A stretch of 64,000 nt of DNA from Aquitalea aquatilis (lineage in GTDB: Bacteria; Pseudomonadota; Gammaproteobacteria; Burkholderiales; Chromobacteriaceae): contig NZ_CP039731.1 of NCBI RefSeq assembly GCF_005155025.1, positions 2,604,001-2,668,000 on the forward strand, in the 5' to 3' direction. Made by a program: the position numbers and the translations under genes. Under the pieces are notes generated by a model. That model worked only from the letters and a program-made list of their open reading frames with translations. It had not been told where the DNA came from and made no database searches. Positions 9,191 through 60,789 of the stretch are shown one piece after another (the first letter of the stretch is position 1; every line of letters starts with the position of its first letter).

Positions 9191-10638
9191 AACCGTTTGC
9201 TGATCACCGGCGTCGGCCCGAACTGGCGCGCCCGCTGACTGGCGGTTGCGGCAGCCACGCGGCAGCCGGCCATGGCCGCCTGGCCGTGGTGGGCAACTGG
9301 CTGCGCGACCATGCCGGCACCCTGCGCCTGCTGCAGTGGTTGGTGGTGCTGGTGTATGCGGCGCTGCTGCTGATTCCGGCCTGGCTGCCGCTGCCGGGTG
9401 ACAGCGCGCGCATCGTCAACAATCTCACCATCTTTGCCCAGTTTGTGTTCTGGGGTATCTGGTGGCCTTTCGTGCTGCTGTCCATGGTGCTGTTTGGCCG
9501 GCTGTGGTGCGGCGTGCTGTGTCCGGAAGGGGCGCTCAGCGAATGGGCGGCCAAGAAGGGCCTGGGCCGACCGATTCCACGCTGGATGCGCTGGGACGGC
9601 TGGCCCTTTGTCGCTTTTGCCCTTACCACCTTGTACGGCCAGCTGGTGAGTGTTTACCAGTATCCCAAGGCGGCGCTGCTGGTGCTGGGCGGTTCCACCG
9701 TGGCCGCCATTGCCATCGGCCTGGTGTATACCCGTGGCAAGCGCGCCTGGTGCCGCCATCTGTGCCCGGTCAACGGCGTGTTTTCCCTGCTGTCCAAGCT
9801 GGCCCCCATGCATTACAAGGTGGATGAACAGCGCTGGCTGGAATCCACCCGCCAGTCCGTCATTCGTATTCAGGCGGTAGACTGCGCACCGCTGCAGCCC
9901 TTGCGCCACATGCAGGGCGGCAGTGGCTGTCATATGTGCGGCCGTTGCAGCGGTCACCGCGATGCCATCAGCCTGGGCCTGCGCTCACCGGCAGAAGAGG
10001 TGGTGAAGGTGGCGGCCAAGGAAGCCACGGTGTGGCAGACCTTGCTGATTGTCTACGGCTTGCTGGGCATTGCCATGGGGGGCTTTCACTGGACGGCCAG
10101 CCCCTGGTTTGTCGACATGAAACAGGCGGCGGCGGAATGGCTGGTGGACCACGACATCATGTGGCCGCTGGATACCGATGCGCCGTGGTGGCTGCTCACG
10201 CATTACCCGGATCACAACGACGTGTTTTCCTGGCTGGATGGCATGGCCATCATCGCCTACATGCTGGGTACCGCGCTGGTGATCGGCAGCGGCCTGCTGC
10301 TGGCCTTGTCCTGTGCGGTGCGTCTGGCCGGCACGTGGCGCAGCCAGCGCCTGCATCATCTGGCACAAAGCCTGATTCCCTTGGCCGGTATCGGCGTGTT
10401 TCTGGGCTTGTCGGCGCTGACGGTGACCCTGCTCAAGGCCGAGGGCATTGCCACCGGTTGGGCCAATGACCTGCGCCTGGGCCTGCTGCTGCTGGCCAAT
10501 GTCTGGTCGTTGTGGCTGGCGGCGGGCATCGTACGGCAATGGCAGGCCGGCTGGCGCATGCTGCCGGCACTGGCTTGCCTGCTGGCAGGCATGGCGCTGG
10601 TGGATGCGGCCTGGGGCTTCATGTTCTGGTGGTGGTAA
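9187..10638 (+). CDS. ftrD: Membrane polyferredoxin of the Ftr iron uptake system
   Basis: This 483-residue polytopic protein carries NapH/FtrD-type iron-sulfur motifs. They include LWCGVLCPEGALSEW near residue 103-117, WCRHLCPVNG near 188-197, and a CHMCGRCSGHRDA segment near 248. FtrD is thought to accept electrons when periplasmic iron is handled by FtrA/FtrB. The start overlaps ftrC by ATGA. The extreme N-terminus is predicted cytoplasmic and unusually Arg/His-rich before the first membrane segment near 40-60. Confidence 0.85.
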   Translation: MKPFADHRRRPELARPLTGGCGSHAAAGHGRLAVVGNWLRDHAGTLRLLQWLVVLVYAALLLIPAWLPLPGDSARIVNNLTIFAQFVFWGIWWPFVLLSMVLFGRLWCGVLCPEGALSEWAAKKGLGRPIPRWMRWDGWPFVAFALTTLYGQLVSVYQYPKAALLVLGGSTVAAIAIGLVYTRGKRAWCRHLCPVNGVFSLLSKLAPMHYKVDEQRWLESTRQSVIRIQAVDCAPLQPLRHMQGGSGCHMCGRCSGHRDAISLGLRSPAEEVVKVAAKEATVWQTLLIVYGLLGIAMGGFHWTASPWFVDMKQAAAEWLVDHDIMWPLDTDAPWWLLTHYPDHNDVFSWLDGMAIIAYMLGTALVIGSGLLLALSCAVRLAGTWRSQRLHHLAQSLIPLAGIGVFLGLSALTVTLLKAEGIATGWANDLRLGLLLLANVWSLWLAAGIVRQWQAGWRMLPALACLLAGMALVDAAWGFMFWWW

Positions 10639-10660
10639 ACCACCAGGCGTGTATGGCAGA

Positions 10661-10685
10661 CAGGGCGGCTTGACCGCCCTGTTTT
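10661..10685 (+). terminator. Intrinsic terminator after ftrABCD
   Basis: CAGGGCGG and CCGCCCTG pair around a five-base loop and are followed by TTTT, 22 bases after the ftrD stop. Confidence 0.8.
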
Positions 10686-10958
10686 GCGTCTGGAGTCAGG
10701 CGGCGGCCGGTACCCGCAGTAGCTGCAGTACATGACTGCCTGCGGATCGATCCCAATACACGGTGCTTGTCCATGCGCAGTCTCTGCGCATTTGTACTGA
10801 TGCTCGCGCTTACCCCGCTTGCACTTGCCCAACCGGCGGGAGGCTTGGCTGGCTGGCCTCGTATTACGCGGTCTGGCATTGGCCGGTCTTGTTTGTCTTA
10901 AAACATGGTTACAGGCACGATTATTGCGAGTCGGTATCAACGACTTCCTGACGCTGCC
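10686..10958 (+). other. Upstream region of nasT
   Basis: No gene is supported here. An in-frame ATG at 10905 could extend nasT by 18 residues, but the added residues are outside the receiver fold. I see no clear sigma-54 site or hairpin leader in front of nasT itself. Confidence 0.4.
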
Positions 10959-11549
10959 ATGACTGCTTCCTCTCCATTACGACTGTTGCTGGTCAACGAT
11001 ACCGACCGCCCGATGGCGCAGCTGCATGCCGCGCTGACGGCGGCCGGCTATCTGGTGATCGTCCAGGCCCAGGGTGCGGCCGAGCTGCTGCAGCTGGTGG
11101 ACAGCCAGGCCCCCGACATCATCATCATCGATACCGAATCCCCCTCGCGTGACACCTTGGAACAACTGGCGCTGATGGGCCATGCCGCGCCACGCCCGGT
11201 GGTGATGTTTGCCGAGCAGGGCGGGCTGTCTACCATTCAGGCCGCAGTCAGCGCCGGGGTCACCGCCTATGTGGTGGACCAGGTGGCAGCCAGCCGGCTG
11301 GCTCCCATCATCGATATGGCGCGGGTGAAATTTGAAGAAGACGCTCGGCTGAAAAAGCGCCTGGCCGAGGTGGAAGAACAGCTGGCCGACCGCAAGCTGA
11401 TCGAGCGCGCCAAGGGCATCCTGATGGAGCGCCGCCAGCTCACCGAAGCGCAAGCCTATGCGCTGCTGCGCAGCCAGGCCATGCAAAGCGGCCTGCGTCT
11501 GGTGGAGCTGTCCCGACAACTGATCAATTCCAGCAAGCTGCTGGGCTGA
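10959..11549 (+). CDS. nasT: NasT: ANTAR-domain nitrate antiterminator
   Basis: This 196-residue protein has an N-terminal receiver-like domain (residues 7-120, D58 in IIIDTE) and a C-terminal ANTAR RNA-binding domain (about 140-192: AKGILMERRQLTEAQAYALLRSQAM). NasT binds paired hexaloop hairpins in nas leader RNA and prevents termination. The partner NasS begins nine bases downstream. The canonical receiver Lys appears absent, in keeping with atypical receivers controlled by protein contact instead of phosphorylation. Its likely RNA target lies at 12752-12811. Confidence 0.92.
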   Translation: MTASSPLRLLLVNDTDRPMAQLHAALTAAGYLVIVQAQGAAELLQLVDSQAPDIIIIDTESPSRDTLEQLALMGHAAPRPVVMFAEQGGLSTIQAAVSAGVTAYVVDQVAASRLAPIIDMARVKFEEDARLKKRLAEVEEQLADRKLIERAKGILMERRQLTEAQAYALLRSQAMQSGLRLVELSRQLINSSKLLG

Positions 11550-11558
11550 AAGCCTTTG

Positions 11559-12662
11559 ATGACTGCTCCTGCATCCCTACACACGCTGAATCTGGGCTTT
11601 GTTGCACTCACCGACTGTGCGGCACTGGTGGTGGCCCGCAAGCTGGGGCTGGACCGGGAGCTGGGCCTGCAGTTCTGCCTGCAGCGCCAGCCGTCCTGGT
11701 CTGCCGTGCGCGACAAGCTGATGAATGGACAACTGGATGCCGCCCATGCCTTGTATGGCTTGGTCTACGGCATGCAACTGGGCATGGGCAGTCCGCAATG
11801 CGAGATGGCCATCCTGATGACGCTGAACCAGAACGGGCAGGGCATCAGTCTGGCCCCGGCGCTGGCGCAGCAATACCGCGAGGGTGTCAGCCTGACCGAG
11901 ATCAGCCAGCAGCTGGGCCGCCCGCTGACGCTGGCGCACACCTTTCCTACCGGCACCCACGCCATGTGGCTGTATTACTGGCTGGCGGCGCAAGGCGTGC
12001 ATCCGTTGCGTGAGGCCCGCTGCGTGGTGATTCCCCCGGCCCAGATGAGTGACGCGACGCAGGGCGGCCTGCTGGACGGCTTTTGCGCCGGCCAGCCCTG
12101 GCACGCCCTGGCACAGCAGCAGGGTGTGGCCAGCCTGGTGGCCGACAGCGCCGCCATCTGGCCGGATCATCCGGAGAAAGTATTGGCCTGCCGCCGTGAG
12201 CTGGTGCAGCAACAGCCCGAGCTGGCCGGGCGACTGGTGCAGGCGTTGTTGCTGGCCAGCCACTGGCTGGACCAGCCGGAAAACCATGCGCAGACGGCCG
12301 CCTGGCTGGCGGAGGATGATTGTCTGGCCATGCCGGCCGAGCTGATCCTGCAGCATTGGGAAACCGCCACTGCAGGCCAGCTGCGCTTTTGTGATGAGGG
12401 CCGGGTCAACTATCCCTATCTGTCGGACGGGCTGTGGTTCCTGCGGCAATACCGGCGCTGGGGCATGTGGCAGGGCGAGGCCGAGCAGGGCGTGGTGGCC
12501 GCCGTCAACCAGACCGCGCTGTACCAGCAGGCGGCGCGGGCTTGCGGTCTGCCGCTGCCTGCAGCCGGCGAGCGCCACAGTGTGCTGATGGATGGCTGCC
12601 ACTGGCCAGCGCTGGCGGATGCTGCGCCCAGTGTCGGTGCGCTGCAGCATTTCACGCACTAA
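11559..12662 (+). CDS. nasS: NasS: nitrate-sensing NrtA/CmpA-like protein
   Basis: This 367-residue protein resembles NrtA/CmpA nitrate/bicarbonate-binding proteins (LNLGFVALTDCAALVVARKLGL, HTFPTGTHAMWLYYWLA, GFCAGQPW, DHPEKVLACRRE) but has no signal peptide. That is the hallmark of cytosolic NasS. NasS is known to hold NasT inactive until nitrate or nitrite binds. The ATG at 11559 is used; a TTG three bases earlier is in frame. Its stop codon lies inside an NtrC-like site for the downstream operon. Confidence 0.9.
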   Translation: MTAPASLHTLNLGFVALTDCAALVVARKLGLDRELGLQFCLQRQPSWSAVRDKLMNGQLDAAHALYGLVYGMQLGMGSPQCEMAILMTLNQNGQGISLAPALAQQYREGVSLTEISQQLGRPLTLAHTFPTGTHAMWLYYWLAAQGVHPLREARCVVIPPAQMSDATQGGLLDGFCAGQPWHALAQQQGVASLVADSAAIWPDHPEKVLACRRELVQQQPELAGRLVQALLLASHWLDQPENHAQTAAWLAEDDCLAMPAELILQHWETATAGQLRFCDEGRVNYPYLSDGLWFLRQYRRWGMWQGEAEQGVVAAVNQTALYQQAARACGLPLPAAGERHSVLMDGCHWPALADAAPSVGALQHFTH

Positions 12663-12670
12663 TGCAGTGC
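12656..12670 (+). promoter_or_regulatory. NtrC-type enhancer site
   Basis: GCAC-TAATGCA-GTGC is a symmetric match to the NtrC consensus core (GCAC-N7-GTGC). It is centred about 85 bases before the predicted sigma-54 start and overlaps the nasS stop codon. Confidence 0.65.
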
Positions 12671-12721
12671 AGCATAAGGCCGCAGGCGACGTGAAACAGC
12701 TATATACCGGCATTTTGCTGC

Positions 12722-12737
12722 TGGCACGCTCTTTGCA
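12722..12737 (+). promoter_or_regulatory. Sigma-54 promoter of the nas operon
   Basis: TGGCAC-GCTCT-TTGCA matches the -24/-12 consensus fully, with GG and GC ten bases apart. The predicted transcription start is near 12748, just before the first leader hairpin. Confidence 0.9.
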
Positions 12738-12751
12738 TTGATTAGCTCGCA

Positions 12752-12873
12752 GCGGCGCAATGGCGTGCCGCCTGCACCAGACATCGCGACAGCGGCCAAC
12801 GGCGGCCACTGCCGACCCGGACAACGGCGTCCTCTCCTGATTTCACCATCAGGGAGGACGCCGTTTTTGTTTT
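12752..12873 (+). promoter_or_regulatory. NasT-responsive antitermination leader (two ANTAR hairpins plus terminator)
   Basis: Hairpin P1 (12752-12771) has a 7-bp stem and hexaloop AATGGC. Hairpin P2 (12790-12811) has hexaloop AACGGC closed by GGCC/GGCC. Both loops carry A at position 1 and G at position 4, the known ANTAR recognition pattern. A long terminator stem (12823-12840 with 12848-12865) and T-tract (12864-12873) follow, ending 43 bases before the transporter ATG. This is a complete ANTAR-type attenuator in the expected place next to nasT-nasS. Confidence 0.9.
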
Positions 12874-12915
12874 GGCCATTTGGCGGGAAGCACGCTTCCC
12901 CGACAGGAGCACTAC

Positions 12916-14118
12916 ATGGACCGCACTTTCTGGCAAGCCGGACACAAGCCGACCCTGTTTTCAGCCTTTTTGTATTTCGACCTCAGTTTCATGGTGTGGT
13001 ATCTGCTGGGGCCCCTGCAGGTGCCCATTGCCACTGCCCTGCATCTGTCCACCCAGCAGCGCGGCCTGATGGTGGCCACGCCGATTCTGGCCGGGGCCAT
13101 CCTGCGCTTGCTGATGGGCGTGCTGGTGGACCGCATCGGCGCACGCGCTGCCGGCATCATCGGCCAGCTGATCGTGATTGCCGCCTTGCTGGCGGCCTGG
13201 CAGATCGGCATTGCCAGCCTGGGCGGTGCGCTGCTGCTGGGCCTGTTCCTCGGTGTGGCCGGGGCCTCGTTTGCGGTATCGCTGCCGCTGGCCTCGCGCT
13301 GGTATCCGCCGCAGCACCAGGGCACGGCCATGGGCATTGCCGGGGCGGGTAATTCCGGCACCGTGCTGGCAGCCTTGTTTGCCCCCGCGCTGGCGGTGGT
13401 TTACGGCTGGCAGAACGTGTTCGGCCTGGCCTGCATTCCGCTGCTGGCTGCGTTGGCCATTTTTGCTGTCTGTGCCAAGGACGCACCGAATGCGCCGCCG
13501 GCCAAGAAGCTGGCCGACTATCTGGCCGTGCTGAAGGAAAAGGACGCCTGGTGGTTCATGTTCTTCTACGCCATGACCTTTGGCGGCTTCTCCGGTTTTG
13601 CCAGCGCGCTGCCGGGCTATTTCCACGACCAATTCGCTTTTGATGCCAAAACGGCTGGCCTGTATACCGCGGCCTGCGTGTTTGCCGGTTCGGTGATGCG
13701 GCCGCTGGGTGGCATGCTGGCCGACCGTCTGGGCGGTACCCGCTCGCTGCTGGCGGTTTACCTGTGCTGTGCACTGCTGATTGGCGCGGCCGGTTTCAAT
13801 GTGGGTGGCCCGTCTGCGGCGCTGGTGTTGTTCATCCTGGCCATGCTGTGCCTGGGGGCCGGCAACGGCGCGGTGTTCCAGCTGGTGCCGCAACGCTTTG
13901 GCAAGGAAATCGGCGTGCTGACCGGCCTGGTGGGCATGGCCGGCGGGGTGGGGGGCTTTGCACTGGCCGCCAGCCTGGGGGCGATCAAGCAGGCCACTGG
14001 TGGCTATGCGGCTGGCTTGTGGCTGTTTGCCTGCTTGTGTGGCCTGGCCTGGCTCAGCCTGGCCGGCGTGAAACAACGCTGGCGCAGTGGCTGGACCGTC
14101 GCCGCGGCCCGCGTATAA
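12916..14118 (+). CDS. NarK/NasA-type nitrate/nitrite MFS transporter
   Basis: This 400-residue transporter has twelve predicted membrane segments. It carries nitrate-family signatures: WYLLGPLQVPIA near the N-terminus, GVAGASFAVSLPLASRWYPPQHQGTAMGIAGAGNSGT, and a later GMLADRLGGTRSLL loop. It imports nitrate for the reductases encoded behind it. The ATG at 12916 has an AGGAG site six bases upstream; an in-frame start at 12880 lies within or next to the terminator and is rejected. It is the first gene of the sigma-54/NasT-controlled operon. Confidence 0.92.
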   Translation: MDRTFWQAGHKPTLFSAFLYFDLSFMVWYLLGPLQVPIATALHLSTQQRGLMVATPILAGAILRLLMGVLVDRIGARAAGIIGQLIVIAALLAAWQIGIASLGGALLLGLFLGVAGASFAVSLPLASRWYPPQHQGTAMGIAGAGNSGTVLAALFAPALAVVYGWQNVFGLACIPLLAALAIFAVCAKDAPNAPPAKKLADYLAVLKEKDAWWFMFFYAMTFGGFSGFASALPGYFHDQFAFDAKTAGLYTAACVFAGSVMRPLGGMLADRLGGTRSLLAVYLCCALLIGAAGFNVGGPSAALVLFILAMLCLGAGNGAVFQLVPQRFGKEIGVLTGLVGMAGGVGGFALAASLGAIKQATGGYAAGLWLFACLCGLAWLSLAGVKQRWRSGWTVAAARV

Positions 14119-14136: not shown

Positions 14137-16593
14137 ATGGATATGGCAGAACTGCAGGGCAAGACCCGGCAAAAGCTGGTGGTGGTGGGTAACGGCATGG
14201 CCGGCATCCGCACCGTGGAAGAGTTGCTGGGCCTGGCACCGGAGATGTACGACATCACCGTATTCGGTGCCGAGCCGCACCCCAACTACAACCGCATCCT
14301 GCTGTCGCCGGTGCTGGCCGGGGAGCAAGACTTCAAGGACATCATTCTCAACAGCGTGGCGTGGTATGCCGAGCACGGCATCACCCTGCACATGGGCAAG
14401 AACGTGGCCACCATCGACCGGGTAAGGCGCAAGGTGATTGCCGAGGACGGCACCGAGGCCGCCTACGACCGCCTGCTGCTGGCCACCGGCTCCACGCCCT
14501 TCATGCTGCCGGTGCCGGGCAAGACGCTGGATGGTGTCATCAGCTACCGCGACATCCGCGATACCGAGTTGATGATGGATGCCGCCAAGACCAAGCGCCA
14601 GGCAGTGGTGATCGGCGGTGGCCTGCTGGGGCTGGAAGCCGCCAATGGCCTCAAGCTGCGTGGCATGGACGTGACCGTGGTGCATCTGGGCGACTGGCTG
14701 CTGGACCGCCAGCTGGACGATGTGGCCGGCGACCTGCTGCGCCGGGCGCTGGAAGAACGAGGCATCGATTTTTTGCTGGGCAAGCAGACCGCCGCCATTC
14801 TGGATGACGGCCAGGGCGGGGTGGCCGGGGTGCGCTTCAGCGATGGCGAACAGCTGGACGCGCAACTGGTGGTGATGGCGGTGGGCATCCGCCCCAATAC
14901 CGCGCTGGCCGAATCCTGCGGCCTGCATTGCGAGCGCGGCATCGTGGTGAGCGATGCGCTGCAAACCTACGACCCGCGCGTGTATGCCGTGGGCGAATGT
15001 GTCAGCCACCGTGGCGTGGCCTATGGCCTGGTGGCCCCGCTGTTCGAGCAGGCCAAGGTGTGCGCCAACCATCTGGCCCAGCTGGGAATCGGCCGCTATC
15101 AGGGCTCGGTGCTGTCCACCAAGCTGAAAGTGACCGGGATTGATCTGTTCTCCGCCGGCGACTTCATGGGTGGGCAGGGCATGGAGGATATCGTGCTGTC
15201 CGACCCGGCTGGCGGTGTCTACAAGAAACTGGTGATCAAGGACGACAAGCTGGCCGGGGTCTGCCTGTATGGCGATACCGCCGATGGTGCCTGGTATTTC
15301 AAGCTGCTGCGCGAGGGCCGCTCGGTAGCCGACCTGCGCGACACGCTGATGTTTGGCGAATCCGCCATTGGCGACGCCGGGGTGCAGGGCCAGAGCAAGG
15401 CCGCCTGCATGCAGGACAGCGACGAAGTGTGCGGCTGCAACGGCGTGTGCAAGGGAACCATCGTCAAGACCATCAAGGACAAGGGCCTGTTCACGCTGGA
15501 CGAGGTGAAAAAGCACACCAAGGCCGCCAGCTCCTGCGGTTCCTGCTCCGGGCTGGTGGAACAGATCCTGATGAGCGTGGTGGGCACTGATTTTCAGGAA
15601 ACCCCCAAGACCAAAGCCGTGTGCGGCTGTACCGAACGCAGCCATGGCGAAGTACGCAAGGCCATCCGCGAACAGCACCTGCTGACCCATGCCGAGGTGT
15701 TCCACTTTCTGGAATGGCGCACCCCCAATGGCTGTGCCACCTGCCGCCCGGCCATCAACTACTACCTGCTGTCCAGCTGGCCGCACGAGGCGGTGGATGA
15801 TCCGCAAAGCCGCTTCGTCAACGAGCGGGTGCACGCCAATATCCAGAAAGACGGCACGTTCTCGGTGATTCCGCAGATGAAGGGCGGCGTCACCACCGCC
15901 AGCGAGCTGCGCCGCATTGCCGACGTGGCCGACAAATACCAGGTGCCAATGGTGAAAGTCACCGGTGGCCAGCGCATCGACCTCTTGGGGGTGAAGAAGG
16001 AAGACCTGGTCAACGTGTGGCAAGACCTGGGCATGCAGTCCGGCCACGCCTACGGCAAATCCATCCGCACGGTGAAAACCTGCGTCGGCAGCGAGTTCTG
16101 CCGCTTCGGCACCCAGAACAGCACCCAGATGGGCATTGATCTGGAAACCATGCTGGCCAATATGTGGTCGCCGCACAAGGTGAAGCTGGCGGTGTCCGGC
16201 TGCCCGCGCAACTGTGCCGAAGCCGGCATCAAGGACGTGGGGGTGATTGCGGTGGATTCCGGCTGGGAGCTGTATGTCGGCGGCAACGGCGGCATCAAGA
16301 CCGAGGTGGCGCAGTTTCTGTGCAAGGTGAAAACCGCCGAGGAAGTGAAGGAATACAGCGGGGCATTTTTGCAGCTGTACCGCGAGGAAGCCTATTACCT
16401 GGACCGCACCGTGCACTACATCGCCCGCGTCGGCCTGGATGTGATCAAGGCCAAAGTGGTGGCCGATGCCGCCAGCCGCCAGGCGTTGTACCAGCGGTTG
16501 CTGTTTTCCCTGCAAGGCCTGCCCGACCCATGGGCGGCGCGCATTGCCGGTACGCAGAAAAACGAATTCATTCCGATCAAGCTGCACGCCTGA
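14137..16593 (+). CDS. nirB: NAD(P)H nitrite reductase large subunit
   Basis: This 818-residue protein has the standard NirB order. An FAD/NAD reductase occupies residues 1-300 (VVVGNGMAG, VVIGGGLLGLEAANGLK). Two BFD-like [2Fe-2S] segments follow (C432-G-C434-N-G-V-C and CGC-T near 490-540). The sulfite/nitrite reductase half has siroheme/4Fe-4S ligands C649, C655, C689 and C693. It reduces nitrite to ammonium in the cytoplasm. It starts 18 bases after the transporter and 12 bases before nirD. No defects are visible. Confidence 0.96.
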   Translation: MDMAELQGKTRQKLVVVGNGMAGIRTVEELLGLAPEMYDITVFGAEPHPNYNRILLSPVLAGEQDFKDIILNSVAWYAEHGITLHMGKNVATIDRVRRKVIAEDGTEAAYDRLLLATGSTPFMLPVPGKTLDGVISYRDIRDTELMMDAAKTKRQAVVIGGGLLGLEAANGLKLRGMDVTVVHLGDWLLDRQLDDVAGDLLRRALEERGIDFLLGKQTAAILDDGQGGVAGVRFSDGEQLDAQLVVMAVGIRPNTALAESCGLHCERGIVVSDALQTYDPRVYAVGECVSHRGVAYGLVAPLFEQAKVCANHLAQLGIGRYQGSVLSTKLKVTGIDLFSAGDFMGGQGMEDIVLSDPAGGVYKKLVIKDDKLAGVCLYGDTADGAWYFKLLREGRSVADLRDTLMFGESAIGDAGVQGQSKAACMQDSDEVCGCNGVCKGTIVKTIKDKGLFTLDEVKKHTKAASSCGSCSGLVEQILMSVVGTDFQETPKTKAVCGCTERSHGEVRKAIREQHLLTHAEVFHFLEWRTPNGCATCRPAINYYLLSSWPHEAVDDPQSRFVNERVHANIQKDGTFSVIPQMKGGVTTASELRRIADVADKYQVPMVKVTGGQRIDLLGVKKEDLVNVWQDLGMQSGHAYGKSIRTVKTCVGSEFCRFGTQNSTQMGIDLETMLANMWSPHKVKLAVSGCPRNCAEAGIKDVGVIAVDSGWELYVGGNGGIKTEVAQFLCKVKTAEEVKEYSGAFLQLYREEAYYLDRTVHYIARVGLDVIKAKVVADAASRQALYQRLLFSLQGLPDPWAARIAGTQKNEFIPIKLHA

Positions 16594-16605
16594 GGAGCGC
16601 ACGCC

Positions 16606-16923
16606 ATGACAGACAGCCAACACTGGGTACACATCTGCGCCCTTAGCGACATTCCGCCGCAAGGCAGCCGGGTGGTGGAACGCGCCAGCGGCAATGTGGC
16701 GGTGTTCCGCACCCATGACGACCAGGTGTTTGCCCTGCTCGACCGTTGCCCGCACAAGGGTGGGCCGCTCAGCCAGGGCATCGTCCACGGCCATGGGGTG
16801 ACCTGCCCGCTGCACAGCTGGAATATCGATCTGGCCAGCGGCGAGGCTCGCGCACCGGACCAGGGCTGCGCCCGCCATTTTCCAGTGAAGCTGGAGCAGG
16901 GCATGGTGCTGCTGGGCTTGTGA
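16606..16923 (+). CDS. nirD: Nitrite reductase small subunit
   Basis: This 105-residue Rieske-type protein keeps the C-P-H and C-P-L-H ligand pairs (DRCPHKGGPLSQG and VTCPLHSWNID). NirD pairs with NirB in assimilatory nitrite reduction. Length is normal. The gene follows nirB closely and is followed by a three-copy 10-bp repeat before the nitrate reductase gene. Confidence 0.95.
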   Translation: MTDSQHWVHICALSDIPPQGSRVVERASGNVAVFRTHDDQVFALLDRCPHKGGPLSQGIVHGHGVTCPLHSWNIDLASGEARAPDQGCARHFPVKLEQGMVLLGL

Positions 16924-16933
16924 ACAAGGCCGA

Positions 16934-16963
16934 TTGCAACGGGTTGCAACGGGTTGCAACGGG
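16934..16963 (+). repeat. Three tandem 10-bp direct repeats
   Basis: TTGCAACGGG occurs three times without a gap (16934, 16944, 16954) between nirD and the nitrate reductase gene. The period equals about one helical turn. Function unknown. Confidence 0.95.
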
Positions 16964-16991
16964 ACCTTGTCATCAGAAAAGGATGAGCAAA

Positions 16992-19700
16992 ATGGGCAAG
17001 ACTGAAACCCGCTCCACCTGCTGCTATTGCGGCACAGGCTGTGGCGTGCTGATTGCCAGCGAAGATGGACGCATTAGCGGTGTGCGTGGCGACCCCGAAC
17101 ATCCGGCCAATTTTGGCCGGATGTGCAGCAAGGGGCTGAACCTGGCGGCCAGTGCCGCCAGCGACAGTGGCCGTGCACTGCACCCGGAAATGCGGCTTAC
17201 CAGCGATGCGCCGCGCCAGCGCGTCGGCTGGGATGAAGCGCTGGACAGCGTGGCCGAAAGTTTTGCCCGCATCATCCGCCAGCACGGGCCGGACGCGGTG
17301 GCTTTTTACGTGTCCGGCCAGCTGCTGACCGAGGACTACTATCTGTTCAACAAGCTGGCCAAGGGCGTGGTGGGAAGCAACAATATCGACACCAATTCCC
17401 GCCTGTGCATGTCCAGCGCCGTCACCGCCTATAAAAAAGCCTTCGGGGCCGATGGCCCGCCTACCTGTTATGCCGACCTGGAGCAAGCCGACTGTGTGCT
17501 GTTTGCCGGCAGCAATCTCGCCTATGCCCACCCGGTGCTGCTGCGCCGGCTGGAAGAGGCCCGGGCGGCGCGTCCTGATACGCGCTGGATCGTCATCGAC
17601 CCGCGCCGGACCGACACCGCCGCCATGGCCGACCTGCACTTGCAGATTCAGCCCGGCACCGATGTGGCGCTGTTCAACGGCATGCTGCATCACCTGATCT
17701 GGGAAGGGCTGGTGGCGGAGGATTACATCAGCGCCCACACGGAAGGCTTTGCCGAACTCAAGCAGATGGTGCGCAATACCACGCCGAAAATGGCGGCGGA
17801 AATCTGCGGCATCCGCGAGGAAGACCTGATCCAGGCCGCCGAGTGGTTTGGCCACAGCCCGGCCAGCCTGTCGCTGTACTGCATGGGGCTGAACCAGTCC
17901 AGCCACGGCACCGACAAGAACCTGGCGCTGATCAACCTGCATCTGGCCACCGGGCAGATTGGCAAGCCCGGTGCCGGGCCGTTTTCGCTCACCGGCCAGC
18001 CCAACGCCATGGGCGGGCGCGAGGTGGGCGGCATGGCCACCATGCTGGCCGCACATCGCGATATCGATAATGCCGCACACCGTGCGGAAGTGGCTGCCCA
18101 TTGGGGCGTGCCGTTCGAGCGGCTGTCGGCCACCCCCGGCCTGCCGGCCATCGCCATGTTTGAAGCGCTGCAGCAAGGGCGTATCAAGGCCATCTGGATT
18201 GCCTGCAGCAACCCGGCGCACTCGCTGCCCAATCTGCCACAGGTACGCGCCGCACTGGCGCAGGCCGAGCTGGTGGTGGTGCAGGACGCCTTTGCCCACA
18301 CCGACACCACCGCGCTGGCCGACATCCTGTTGCCCGCCGCCACCTGGGGCGAGAAAGAGGGCACGGTCACCAATTCCGAACGCTGCATCAGCCGGGTACG
18401 CGCCGCCGTGCCGCCACCGGGCGAGGCGCAGAGCGATGGCTGGATCGTCAGCCAGGTCGCGCGCCGGCTGGAGGCGCTGCTGTATCCCGGCAGCGCCAGC
18501 TTGTTTGGCCATGCCGCTGTCGCCAGCGTGTTCGATGAACACCGCGCACTGACTGCCGGGCGCGATCTGGACATCAGCGGGCTGGACCATGCCTTGCTCG
18601 ACAGCGCCGGACCGCAGCAATGGCCGCTGCCGGCCGGTGCGGCACGGGGTCAGGCACGGCGCTATGTCGACGGCGTGTTTGCCACCGCTGATGGCCGGGC
18701 GCGCTTTCATGCCGTGCGCTACCAGCCGCCGGCGGAAAATGTCTCGGCGCATTACCCTTTCCGCCTGCTGACTGGTAGGTTGCGTGACCAGTGGCACGGC
18801 ATGAGCCGCACCGGCCGCCTGCCGCAACTGTTTGCCCACAGCCCGGAACCGGCACTGGAGATGCACCCGGACGATGCCGAGCGTCGTGGCCTGCAGGCGG
18901 GTGACCTGGTGCGTATCAGCAGCAAGCGCGGCCAGTTGGTGCTGCCGCTCTCCCTCAGCCGCGAGCTGCCCGGTGGCACGGTGTTTGCCGCCATGCACTG
19001 GAATGGCCAGTTCCTCAATAGTGGCGGCATTAACGAGGCCAGCCAGCCACAGGTGGATGGCCAGTCTTTCCAGCCAGAACTCAAACATGCGGCGGTCAAG
19101 GTGGAAAAAATCAGCCTGCCGTGGCGGGTAACGGCCGCGCTGCGCTGTGACGATCTGCCGGCCTTGCAGGCGCGGCTGGCACCGCTGTTGCGTCAGTGCA
19201 GCTATGCCGCCATCTCGCTGCAAAACCCGGATGTGCTGCTGCTGCGTGCCGCGCACCAACAGGCCGTGGCGGGCTGGCTACAACCATTGCTGGATGTGCT
19301 GGGCCTGCACACCGGGCCTGATGTGCTGGAATACCGTGACGACCGGCGCAGCGTGGTCAAGCGCGTGGCCTGGGCCGATGGCGTGCTGGCGGGGTTTGTT
19401 TTTGCCAGCAGTAGCGCCGCCGATGGTCTGGCAGCGGAAAGCCTGCTGCAGCAACTGCAAGCCGGTGAGCCGTGGCAGGGTTCGCGGCTGGCGGTGTTTG
19501 CCCCGGCCGGCCAGCGTGCCGTGGTGCGGGAGAAGATCATCTGCCAGTGCAAGCAGGTGGGAGAACACGCCATCCGCCAGTGTCTGGAGCGGGGCGAGAG
19601 TGTGGAGCACATCAAGGGCGCACTGGGCTGCGGCAGCGTCTGCGGCTCCTGCGTGCCGGAAATCAAACGCATGGCCGCCACTGTGGCGCAGCCTGCCTGA
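16992..19700 (+). CDS. nasA: Assimilatory nitrate reductase catalytic subunit
   Basis: This protein of about 902 residues begins with the 4Fe-4S motif CCYCGTGCG and continues through a molybdopterin oxidoreductase domain (SRLCMSSAV, FAGSNLAYAHPVL, GQPNAMGGREVGG). A dinucleotide-binding domain follows, then a C-terminal BFD-like [2Fe-2S] domain (CQCKQVGEHAI, GCGSVCGSCVPEIK). That tail is typical of NAD(P)H-linked assimilatory enzymes. The ATG at 16992 has AAGGA eight bases upstream; the ATG at 16983 is in frame but too close to that site. The symbol follows Klebsiella usage; other genera call it nasC or narB. Confidence 0.93.
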   Translation: MGKTETRSTCCYCGTGCGVLIASEDGRISGVRGDPEHPANFGRMCSKGLNLAASAASDSGRALHPEMRLTSDAPRQRVGWDEALDSVAESFARIIRQHGPDAVAFYVSGQLLTEDYYLFNKLAKGVVGSNNIDTNSRLCMSSAVTAYKKAFGADGPPTCYADLEQADCVLFAGSNLAYAHPVLLRRLEEARAARPDTRWIVIDPRRTDTAAMADLHLQIQPGTDVALFNGMLHHLIWEGLVAEDYISAHTEGFAELKQMVRNTTPKMAAEICGIREEDLIQAAEWFGHSPASLSLYCMGLNQSSHGTDKNLALINLHLATGQIGKPGAGPFSLTGQPNAMGGREVGGMATMLAAHRDIDNAAHRAEVAAHWGVPFERLSATPGLPAIAMFEALQQGRIKAIWIACSNPAHSLPNLPQVRAALAQAELVVVQDAFAHTDTTALADILLPAATWGEKEGTVTNSERCISRVRAAVPPPGEAQSDGWIVSQVARRLEALLYPGSASLFGHAAVASVFDEHRALTAGRDLDISGLDHALLDSAGPQQWPLPAGAARGQARRYVDGVFATADGRARFHAVRYQPPAENVSAHYPFRLLTGRLRDQWHGMSRTGRLPQLFAHSPEPALEMHPDDAERRGLQAGDLVRISSKRGQLVLPLSLSRELPGGTVFAAMHWNGQFLNSGGINEASQPQVDGQSFQPELKHAAVKVEKISLPWRVTAALRCDDLPALQARLAPLLRQCSYAAISLQNPDVLLLRAAHQQAVAGWLQPLLDVLGLHTGPDVLEYRDDRRSVVKRVAWADGVLAGFVFASSSAADGLAAESLLQQLQAGEPWQGSRLAVFAPAGQRAVVREKIICQCKQVGEHAIRQCLERGESVEHIKGALGCGSVCGSCVPEIKRMAATVAQPA

Positions 19701-19715
19701 ACAGGGAGTCGGAAC

Positions 19716-20480
19716 ATGAAACGCGCAACAGGCAAGGTCGTGCTGCTGGGGGCTGGCCCTGGCGATCTGGAACTGCTCACCCTCAAGGCGGCGCGCCAGC
19801 TGCAGGCCGCCGAGGTGCTGCTGCTGGACGAACTGGTGAATCCGGACATCGTCAGCCTGGCCCCGCAGGCGCAGGTGGTGCGTGTGGGCAAGCGCGGCGG
19901 CTGCAAGTCCACGCCGCAGGATTTCATCCAGCGTCTGATGCGCCGTTATGCGCTGCAGGGCCGACGGGTGGTGCGGGTGAAGGGCGGCGAAGTGCTGCTG
20001 TTTGGCCGTGCCGGCGAGGAAATCCGCTATCTGCAGCAGCATGGCATTGCCGTGGAAGTGGTCAATGGCATCAGTTCGGCACTGGCGGCAGCCGCCAGCC
20101 TGAATGTGTCGCTCACCCATCGCCAGCATTGCCGTGGCGTGACGCTGGTGACGGCGCATGCGCAGGATCACAGCGAGCCAGACTGGCAGGCGCTGGCTGC
20201 CACCGGCACCACGCTGGCCATCTATATGGGCATGAGCCGCATCGGCAGCCTGAACCAGGCGCTGTTGCAACACCTGCCGGCGACTACCCCAGTGGCGGTG
20301 GTGCAGTGGGCCAGCACACCACAGGAACGGCGTTTGCTGAGCACCCTGGCCACGCTGGAGGCCGATGCCGGTGCCGCCGGCATGGGCAGCCCGGCCATCA
20401 TTCTGGTGGGCGAGGCGATGGCTGAGTCAGAAGGGTTTGTATGTCCTGACATGAATGATCCCGTCGCCATTCATGCCTAA
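19716..20480 (+). CDS. cobA: Uroporphyrinogen-III C-methyltransferase
   Basis: This 254-residue SUMT has the family motifs VVLLGAGPGDLELLTLKA, DELVNPDI, VRVKGGEVLLFGRAGEE and the AdoMet-binding GISSALAAAA. It makes precorrin-2 for siroheme, the cofactor of NirB, which explains its place as last gene of the nas operon, 15 bases after the nitrate reductase. It lacks the CysG dehydrogenase/ferrochelatase part, so another enzyme must finish siroheme. Confidence 0.93.
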   Translation: MKRATGKVVLLGAGPGDLELLTLKAARQLQAAEVLLLDELVNPDIVSLAPQAQVVRVGKRGGCKSTPQDFIQRLMRRYALQGRRVVRVKGGEVLLFGRAGEEIRYLQQHGIAVEVVNGISSALAAAASLNVSLTHRQHCRGVTLVTAHAQDHSEPDWQALAATGTTLAIYMGMSRIGSLNQALLQHLPATTPVAVVQWASTPQERRLLSTLATLEADAGAAGMGSPAIILVGEAMAESEGFVCPDMNDPVAIHA

Positions 20481-59600: not shown

Positions 59601-60789
59601 CAACGACCTGCACGGCCACGAAGCCGGCGACCAGTTGCTGATCGCGGTGACCGAGCGCTTGCAGTCGGTGCTGCGTGCCGACGACACGCTGGCGCGGCTG
59701 GGTGGTGACGAATTCGTCCTGCTGCTGTCGGGGCTTGAGGGCAGTGAGGAATGCATCCCGGTGCTCGACCGCGTGCTCAGTGCCGTGCGACAGGAAGTCA
59801 AGCTGGCGGCAGCTGCCATCTGTACCAGTGCCAGTGTGGGCGTCACCTTGTACCCGCTGGACGATGCCGATGCCGACACCTTGCTGCGACACGCCGATCA
59901 GGCCATGTATCAGGCCAAGACATCCGGCAAGAACCGCTACCAGCTATTCGACCCGGAAAGCGACCGCAAGGCCCAGCTGCACCGCCGCACACTGGAGTCG
60001 CTGGCACTGGCCTTGCAGCAGCAACAATTCCTGCTGTATTACCAGCCCAAGGTCGATCTGGGCAGCGGCTGCATCATCGGCGTGGAAGCGCTGATACGCT
60101 GGCAGCACCCCGAGCGCGGCGTGCTGGCCCCGGCAGCCTTCCTGCCCACCTTGCAGGGGAGCGAGCTGGAAACCGCATTTGGCCGCTGGGTGCTGGATGA
60201 GGGCGTGGCGCAAGCCGCCCGCTGGCAGGAGCAGGGCCTGGACATGGCCATCAGCATCAACGTTAGCGCCAATTACCTGTTGCATGCCGATTTTTACCAT
60301 CATCTGCAACAGGCGCTGCAGCGCTACCCGCAGCTCCAGCCCTCATTGCTGGAGCTGGAGGTACTGGAGTCGGCGGCACTGGCCGATATGGATCAGGCCC
60401 TGGCCGTGCTGCAGCAATGCCGTGCATTGGGCGTGCACTTCGCCCTGGACGACTTCGGTACCGGCTATTCTTCGCTCACCTATTTGCGCAAGCTGCCGCT
60501 GGATACGCTAAAGATCGATCAGAGCTTTGTCTCCAACATGCTGGACGATGCCGACGATCTGGGCATTGTCGCCAGTGTCATCCAGCTGGCAGAAGTATTT
60601 CAGCGGCAGGTGATCGCCGAAGGCGTGGAAACCATGGCGCATGGCGCGGTATTGCTGCAGATGGGCTGCCGTCTGGTGCAGGGTTATGGTATTGCCCGGC
60701 CCATGCCGGCAGCCGAACTGGAAGGGTGGTGCCGGCAGTGGCAACTGCAGGGACTGTGGCGACAACTGGGCGACGGGCCGGTCATCTGA
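56602..60789 (+). CDS. Six-PAS membrane GGDEF-EAL protein
   Basis: This 1395-residue protein has membrane segments in residues 15-60 and 95-190 (a DUF4118-like block), then six consecutive PAS domains (about 205-970). A GGDEF domain follows with an intact active site GGDEF at 1034-1038 and inhibitory R-x-x-D just before it, then an EAL domain with E1162-A-L and ALDDFGTGYSS. Both c-di-GMP synthesis and breakdown are possible. The next gene can start inside its stop codon. Confidence 0.95.
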   Translation: MAGMVASVRNRYIRLVVVAYGVLAMLWILLSDSLLSLLADADTMLQLSTYKGGVFVLMTAVMLFFSLRAVPAAEPSPASGLLENWAERMGHGRIAPWLGYLFALLLALAVLGLRYLLPISVYQRPMLIMFMLPIILSALLGGLGPGLLATALTVAGVDWLATPHFHSSAAEPFTTLQWGFLALCGGAVSLFSGLLRQLAKRNESHRNLLEAVVTGTSDAIFVKDRQGRYLMVNAAAARMVGREVSAIIGEDDHALFDAASAAELMALDDAIMRDGSLHTHEEFLRLQDGAALVFQVSKGPIFDAEGQVVGLFGIARDISRHKQAEQELQESEAALRAAQRLAGIGNWSWDLASDQHVWSSEVYHLYGRSPALPPAVYPEVCTYFTAESWAVLSALVQQCLQDGQPYQCDAEVLRPDGEQRWITVRGEAVHDSAGRIVRLQGTVQDVSERMRLTMQIRSSERRLQQVVEATSDGFWDWDLRSGHIYRSARYYALTGYRPEDDTHDIGFFKQLLLPDDLGVWQQALQAHLRGETALMEFDVRLITRSGELRWVRVCGRAVERNEIGEVQRLVGTLSDITERRRLDEDLRFVLNEAGDAIWIADEQGQYLFANPSACRMTGHDQAQLQQMHLEDLLAPASLPVLPGHLRQLEQQHFIRSEWTLQRLDGSEVLAELTTVHMQDGRYMAFGRDLTEKKQAEQTLLQREQQLARVLEGSDQGYWDWNVQTDDFQVSKRWKEMLGYPPDSGDITRQVWLGHIHPEDYPQVEASLQRHLAGQTPAYEMEMRCRSLAGGWRWILSRGRVVEQDGQGRPLMMSGTHTDITEHKIYALAQKEAAIVFDSSYEGIMVVSPARLMTKVNAAFTRITGYSEQEAIGCSPAMLSSGQHGPAFYQELWSMVQQHDFWRGEIWNRRKNGDLYAELLSISVVRDQFGQIQHYIGIFSDITQLKAHEAELNRIANFDPLTGVPNRRLLSDRLEQALIRSRRSGKSCAVCFLDLDGFKAINDLHGHEAGDQLLIAVTERLQSVLRADDTLARLGGDEFVLLLSGLEGSEECIPVLDRVLSAVRQEVKLAAAAICTSASVGVTLYPLDDADADTLLRHADQAMYQAKTSGKNRYQLFDPESDRKAQLHRRTLESLALALQQQQFLLYYQPKVDLGSGCIIGVEALIRWQHPERGVLAPAAFLPTLQGSELETAFGRWVLDEGVAQAARWQEQGLDMAISINVSANYLLHADFYHHLQQALQRYPQLQPSLLELEVLESAALADMDQALAVLQQCRALGVHFALDDFGTGYSSLTYLRKLPLDTLKIDQSFVSNMLDDADDLGIVASVIQLAEVFQRQVIAEGVETMAHGAVLLQMGCRLVQGYGIARPMPAAELEGWCRQWQLQGLWRQLGDGPVI

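Follow-up and report, generated by a model that had tools for sequence, protein, structure and literature searches.

A predicted sigma-54/NtrC promoter and NasT-type attenuator leader with a third hexaloop hairpin upstream of a nitrate-assimilation operon in Aquitalea aquatilis

Background

The 253 bases between nasS and nasA of Aquitalea aquatilis, which lie between nasT-nasS on one side and nasA-nirB-nasC-cobA on the other, very probably act as control region of a nitrate-assimilation operon and encode its attenuator leader, in which an extra hairpin (H1) at the start of the transcript would serve as an early landing site for the antiterminator protein NasT. A sequence-only reading of this DNA had proposed that a promoter of the sigma-54/NtrC kind precedes an attenuator leader of the NasT (ANTAR) type. 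This proposal is backed by the genome, which encodes RpoN, NtrC and a single ANTAR protein, and by the conservation of A1 and G4 in the hexaloops.

In the mechanism that we propose, nitrogen limitation would lead phosphorylated NtrC to occupy the sites at 12656-12670 and 12626-12640 and to activate RNA polymerase-sigma-54 at 12722-12737, with transcription beginning near 12748 as predicted from the sequence. By default, the nascent RNA would terminate at 12823-12875. In response to nitrate or nitrite, NasS would release NasT, which would bind the hexaloop hairpins, H2 acting as the recruitment hairpin and H3 as the antitermination hairpin; by holding H3 folded, NasT would remove the 5' arm of the terminator, so that the polymerase could read into nasA. 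Being at the very 5' end, H1, a third hexaloop of the NasT type, would raise the odds that NasT is already aboard when H2 and H3 emerge. We infer NtrC activation, the start at 12748 and the hold of nitrate-released NasT on H3, which together would make this locus an AND gate for nitrogen scarcity and nitrate. Less certain than these steps is that H1 is perhaps an additional early landing site, a role as additional recruitment hairpin that is suggested by the hand-off model for EutV.

Methods

The window, by which we mean the whole stretch of 64,000 nucleotides (64 kb) that was analysed, was searched with Pfam models and, both at curated cut-offs and with a loose threshold, with Rfam models, scanned for promoter and terminator motifs and folded in parts. 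R1, a covariance model of H2-H3, was built from 30 leaders (alignment A4), and a second model, R2, includes H1. Removal of near-duplicates from 154 raw leaders left 97, among which L038, with H2 and H3 19 nt apart, is doubtful yet included in the counts. A strict H1 was defined as a C-AANGNN-G tip on at least 4 bp, located 28-60 nt upstream of H2. The three hairpins were aligned in 14 leaders, namely those of the window, L003-L011, L014, L031 (Chromobacterium haemolyticum), L085 (Xanthomonas melonis) and L088 (X. bonasiae). Eighty loci with relatives of the NasS family were used solely as a source of leaders; judging from position and identity, many of these relatives are probably the transporter protein NrtA rather than NasS. 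Sigma-54 start sites were placed at the conventional distance, 12 nt downstream of the GC in the -12 element.

Results

Table 1. Features of the nasT-nasA region, in positions of the window
Feature	Positions	Strand	Description and evidence
nasT	10905-11549	+	Receiver-like and ANTAR RNA-binding protein; PF03861 67.3 bits, PF00072 40.4 bits; start codon uncertain
nasS	11556-12662	+	NMT1-like nitrate/nitrite sensor, partner of NasT; PF13379 254.9 bits; TTG start
Second NtrC-like site	12626-12640	+	GCCCAGTGTCGGTGC; weaker, 1 mismatch; 30 bp upstream of the main site, in the 3' end of nasS
Main NtrC-like palindrome	12656-12670	+	GCACTAATGCAGTGC; GCAC-N7-GTGC; half-sites invariant in 8/8 rows
Sigma-54 promoter	12722-12737	+	TGGCACGCTCTTTGCA; predicted start near 12748; conserved in relatives
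H1, extra hairpin	12749-12775	+	Hexaloop AATGGC (12759-12764); folds, covariation, shuffles
H2, P1 of the usual ANTAR pair	12790-12811	+	Hexaloop AACGGC (12798-12803)
H3, P2 of the usual ANTAR pair	12819-12832	+	Hexaloop AACGGC (12823-12828); stem GGAC/GTCC
Intrinsic terminator	12823-12875	+	Outer stem 12823-12834/12854-12865, then T tract; folding
nasA	12916-14118	+	MFS transporter (nitrate/nitrite), first controlled gene; PF07690 143 bits; ATG at 12916
nirB, nasC-like molybdopterin reductase, cobA-like methylase	14137-20480	+	Remaining presumed operon; Pfam matches, ORFs

The gene order is that of a NasS-NasT system, with a receiver-ANTAR protein adjoining an NMT1-like sensor upstream of nitrate genes (Table 1), and the vicinity of nasT-nasS to the control element, already pointed out from the sequence, is borne out by the Pfam matches and ORF positions. 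NasT is the sole ANTAR match of its genome in a profile search; RpoN is encoded there too, with a score of 449.5 bits, as is NtrC, which exceeds its cut-off with 682.9 bits. The residues R142, K143, K147, Y164 and M172, through which EutV contacts RNA according to excerpts of PMC8934654, were mapped by hand on an alignment to R163, K164, R168, Y185 and M193 of NasT, the one difference from this set being the change of K147 to R. For nasTS itself, the stretch 10401-10960 showed neither a sigma-54 match in the forward direction nor an NtrC-like site with 0 or 1 mismatches, while the promoter scan returned one weak sigma-70-like match within nasT. A scan of viral contigs with NasA gave no match.

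Both promoter motifs that the sequence-only reading had named, a symmetric GCAC-N7-GTGC site and a TGGCAC-N5-TTGCA promoter, are present, and the palindrome does use the nasS stop codon, the TAA of which (12660-12662) sits inside it. This main NtrC-like site, which matches the NtrC half-site consensus, stands, but the second site 30 bp upstream had been overlooked. By themselves, these motifs are weak evidence and unconvincing, as they occur near chance level in 64 kb: GCAC-N7-GTGC is found 2 times (3.4 expected) and the sigma-54 pattern with at most 1 mismatch 5 times (4.05 expected), two of these being exact. The other exact sigma-54 pattern of the window, TGGCACTGGCCTTGCA, lies at 60002-60017. 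Over the 4.36-Mb genome the exact pattern occurs 8 times, versus 0 times for the reversed pattern.

Where motif counts are not persuasive, the conservation and arrangement of the motifs are convincing. The half-sites of the palindrome are invariant in 8/8 aligned rows (the window and 7 relatives), whereas their flanks vary, and an exact NtrC-like site lies at most 200 nt upstream of 25 of the 64 sigma-54 leaders, compared to 18 of 1796 background stretches; by class, this concerns 13/19 long and 12/45 short sigma-54 leaders. Pairs of exact NtrC-like sites are spaced 31 bp apart in L009 and L010 and 30 bp apart in L013. A -24/-12 element TGGCAC-N5-TTGC(A/T) in a genome encoding RpoN fits a sigma-54 promoter with a predicted start site, and a conserved upstream palindrome in a genome encoding NtrC fits an NtrC-type enhancer of which occupancy is predicted.

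Downstream of the promoter, the hexaloops AATGGC and AACGGC that had been singled out from the sequence are found in H1 and H2, and the strong terminator with T tract that had been read after them is likewise confirmed, its two arms pairing with a folding probability of 1.0. The earlier inventory of two hairpins was nevertheless incomplete, as a third hexaloop, at 12823-12828, had been missed, and for this reason the NasT hairpin pair has to be redrawn: both hairpins within 12752-12811 are real, but the predicted functional pair is H2 with H3 (12790-12832), because H3 alone sits at the usual distance and shares sequence with the terminator. The loop of H3 lies 25 nt downstream of that of H2; together with the 3' side of the H3 stem it spans 12823-12832 and makes up the 5' arm of the terminator. 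Compared to the two-hairpin antiterminators as defined by Ramesh et al. 2012, H2 and H3 (and H1) are hairpins of at least 3 bp with A1/G4 hexaloops, the second hairpin of the pair overlaps an intrinsic terminator and the cognate protein NasT is encoded in the genome, its binding and read-through here being predicted.

Three strict hexaloop hairpins within 12748-12836 were obtained in 0 of 20,000 dinucleotide shuffles. When 12748-12789 was shuffled 20,000 times, 0.015% of the trials contained a strict H1 of 7 bp or more. In folding, H3 and the terminator were shown to be mutually exclusive: when the RNA is modelled up to 12836, the pairing probabilities of H1, H2 and H3 are 0.99, 0.91 and 0.54, and upon extension to 12872 that of H3 drops to 0 with the terminator at 1.0. 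The modelled energy of H3 alone is -4.0 kcal/mol compared to -33.1 for 12818-12872 with the terminator, which implies that H3 would need the help of a bound protein, as expected of an antiterminator. The segment 12748-12880 folds 6.2 standard deviations below its shuffles, which is attributed mostly to the terminator, and 12748-12815 alone is unremarkable in this respect (energy z -1.4, with 15/200 shuffles equally good). A simple consensus terminator scan did not return the terminator at 12823-12875, since in one reading its loop exceeds the limit of 8 and its stem is interrupted.

At curated cut-offs, Rfam gave 0 matches in the window. With a loose threshold, RF03032 (narK RNA) aligns on H2-H3, at 12762-12833 with 41.5 bits (E 1.9e-6), yet remains just below its cut-off of 43.2, and RF00625 (P11), whose match at 12710-12862 takes in the core of H3 and terminator as well as the sigma-54 element, remains below its cut-off of 70 with 28.8 bits. 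P11 is presumably the NalA leader of P. aeruginosa. Matches to Bp2_287, Mu-gpT-DE and other families, all far below cut-off, were taken as chance. In 6 of 20 chosen loci, narK RNA gave 7 matches over its cut-off, all 7 of them on independently found H2-H3 pairs. These matches on two-hexaloop motifs are at L044 5753-5822, L054 7878-7949, L062 3806-3875 and 5754-5825, L063 5787-5857, L060 7112-7184 and L129 1473-1544. The RF03032 consensus pairs H2 only and leaves the second hairpin unpaired; redefining narK RNA as an antiterminator of the ANTAR (NasT) kind is probably justified, an identity hinted at by the position of the examined matches on the NasT two-hairpin motif.

Among relatives, the leader follows the ANTAR protein. 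In a DNA search, 17 of 61 genomes gave a match, in part a short and weak one, with 6/10 in the same genus (own genome included). With R1 at E <=0.001, a leader was found in 37/61 family genomes and an ANTAR protein in 39/61; the leader is present in 37 of the 39 ANTAR-bearing genomes versus 0/22 without an ANTAR match, whereby the partial origin of the R1 rows from the same family favours sensitivity but does not explain the absence from ANTAR-free genomes. R1 gave no match in two ANTAR-positive genomes, G062 and G024; the latter does carry a leader, L009, the H2 loop of which has diverged. In the 30 leaders of A4, 95.9% of the cells of the R1 pairs are paired and covariation amounts to 0.526 versus 0.144 after shuffling (0/500 as high); 5 pairs changed on both sides, a number reached by 70/500 shuffles.

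The own genome has one strong leader (51.1 bits). A second one was rejected, the best two of 24 weaker R1 matches (24.6 and 21.6 bits) lacking a T tract in the inspected stretches and the remaining 22 scoring 19.1 bits or less. Also rejected was a BLAST hit of H1 to 1,234,112 (L020), as the inspected stretch around it showed no such leader. In g2, one genus of the family, four NasT-type leader matches were seen per genome, in two of these genomes within one 12-kb stretch (G010:C17 194354-206166, G019:C27 10495-22655), which suggests repeated attenuation along nitrate genes. In L013 (about 1345-1500), an insertion of about 130 bp with terminal inverted repeats splits H1 from H2-H3, with the sigma-54 element, two NtrC-like sites and H1 retained upstream of it; L012 has a similar end at about 1440-1470 and a truncated nasS, and sigma-54 and NtrC-like matches were not found there. 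The insertion looks like a small mobile element.

The tips of H1, H2 and H3 all read C-AANGNN-G in 14/14 aligned leaders, so that the conservation of A1 and G4 in relatives, proposed earlier as a check, is confirmed; these tips have the pattern that NasR selects in vitro. H3, of which GACAACGGCGTC is identical in 14/14 leaders, is by this alignment the most conserved leader part. Of the 19 hairpin pairs in the 14 leaders, 13 changed on both sides (0/500 shuffles as high), including 6 of the 7 pairs of H1, where 93.9% of the cells are paired, a percentage that is inflated like the other pairing percentages because rows were chosen partly for their hairpins (L085 and L088 for H1) and the search itself selected for stems. 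Little covariation comes from the terminator stem, which hardly varies: 2 of its pairs changed on both sides (61/500 shuffles as high).

The frequency of H1 was compared between leader classes. When the sigma-54 element lies 36-50 nt from H2, a strict H1 is found in 0/46 leaders, as there is no room for it, and H2-H3 is still there; at 58-78 nt it is found in 11/19 (long leaders), further away in 2/4, and without a sigma-54 match in reach in 8/28, compared to 61 of 9513 windows of background. Loop spacing in the 11 strict long leaders is 32-42 nt between H1 and H2 and 19-29 nt between H2 and H3. When the 19 long leaders are folded, most show a hairpin close to their 5' end. Besides the 11 strict ones, L141 and L192 have a C-AACGGC-G tip on an interrupted stem; the best folds of L141 and of L009, a strict case, omit H1. 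In another five of the 19 (L119, L146, L158, L161 and L082), the 5' hairpin has a loop of 3, 4, 5 or 7 nt, which indicates that the hexaloop of H1 is dispensable. R2 matches 9 of 369 genomes of the class, which, since R2 contains H1, shows reach and not frequency. Of its 8 loci outside the own genome, five carry three hexaloops but no sigma-54 match (L139, L140, L142, L143 and L145), L141 has the interrupted form, L146 another loop size and L144 none. The three-hexaloop leader is a recurrent variant present in several bacterial families. In the open-licence ANTAR papers that were searched, including the texts of PMC3369931, PMC8164766 and PMC8934654, we did not find it described.

Discussion

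Several other explanations of this leader were weighed. H1 and H2 (12752-12811) might themselves be the NasT pair, the terminator merely following them. Both hairpins are real and conserved, but they do not overlap the terminator, so binding there alone would not exclude it; moreover, the 25-nt spacing of H2-H3 lies within the range of the 30 A4 leaders, most of which are without H1, and the best conserved part is H3, the pair H2-H3 being kept in the short leaders that lack H1 (0/46). We regard such a pairing as highly improbable. It is also improbable, though somewhat less so, that the palindrome serves another regulator and that an enhancer-binding protein other than NtrC activates sigma-54 here: the genome has 79 matches to the ntrC model, 1 of which is over the cut-off, but the site fits NtrC half-sites and recurs in exact form at the 25/64 sigma-54 leaders mentioned above, and NtrC control of such an operon has been described for P. 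aeruginosa.

Three ANTAR hexaloops in series, as a distinct class of leader, could act as a staged relay, in which H1 would capture NasT once the promoter is cleared and NasT would then pass to H2 and on to H3 as each of them emerges, and we put this forward tentatively. Quite conceivable too, although we would not favour it, is a plain stem-loop at the 5' end that protects the RNA or assists its folding and in which the hexaloop is incidental. H1 starts 1 nt from the predicted 5' end, and the five long leaders with other loop sizes have their hairpin in the same place; because some relatives thus retain the hairpin but lose the hexaloop, this stays a serious rival. Against it plead the frequency of the strict hexaloop in long leaders (11/19, and L141 and L192 with the same tip) versus the background windows, the invariant tip of H1 on a stem that varies by compensation, and the occurrence of H1 in the five R2 loci without a sigma-54 match. 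In a further alternative, H1-H2 would be a decoy or brake, NasT held there being delayed in or prevented from moving to H3, which would sharpen the response or set a threshold. Three similar sites in series permit competing pairings, and the wider spacing of H1-H2 relative to H2-H3 in the strict long leaders is in line with it, but no sequence feature distinguishes a brake from a helper; we consider this unlikely. Were the relay to hold, the extra hairpin would buy time and tune nitrate sensitivity, and if each NasT dimer holds a single hexaloop at any time, as proposed for EutV, three-site leaders would directly test the hand-off. The locus is mainly another well-preserved example of a known two-signal logic; its useful part is the third hexaloop, as natural three-hairpin leaders with varied spacings could separate the models of ANTAR binding.

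The closest known system is NalA, reportedly described by Romeo et al. in 2012 as the leader of nirBD-PA1779-cobA in Pseudomonas aeruginosa. Excerpts of PMC12830290 and PMC8092218 describe control of this nirBD leader by sigma-54, NtrC and NasT, so the AND gate is in itself not new. As far as these excerpts go, both systems have a sigma-54 promoter, activation by NtrC, antitermination by NasT at a leader terminator and an operon with nirB and cobA, whereas the window differs in having nasT-nasS directly upstream, an NtrC-like site over the nasS stop and the extra hexaloop hairpin; the likeness to Rfam P11 amounts to 28.8 bits, with a cut-off of 70. Another RNA to which the window is related is RF03032 narK RNA, to which H2-H3 aligns with a shortfall of 41.5 versus 43.2 bits.

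In Paracoccus denitrificans, nitrate dissociates NasS-NasT and NasT binds the nasA leader, according to excerpts of PMC3795266. As here, nasTS lies upstream of nasA with an intergenic leader, which NasT binds in Paracoccus, but excerpts of PMC5424462 and PMC3795266 report the NtrC site before nasT and mutation of two hairpins, HI and HII. The nasF leader of Klebsiella oxytoca shares nitrate-dependent ANTAR antitermination, the two-hairpin motif and the terminal C:G pair with A1 and G4, which NasR selects in vitro (excerpts of PMC7496416), and differs in that the single-component sensor NasR replaces NasS-NasT.

ANTAR targets consist of two hexaloop hairpins, the second overlapping a terminator, according to excerpts of PMC3369931. 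The eut leaders of EutV in Enterococcus faecalis resemble the window in their two A1/G4 hexaloops, the second on the terminator, and in their receiver-ANTAR protein, and excerpts of PMC3369931 and PMC8934654 show as differences the control of EutV by phosphorylation and the two hairpins of the eut leaders. For the sequestering RNA EutX, PMC8934654 mentions one more hexaloop, which is single. How ANTAR proteins use the two hairpins is disputed between one dimer on both (PMC3369931) and a hand-off in which a dimer binds first the recruitment and then the antitermination hairpin (PMC8934654), and it is to the latter model that an early landing site at H1 would correspond.
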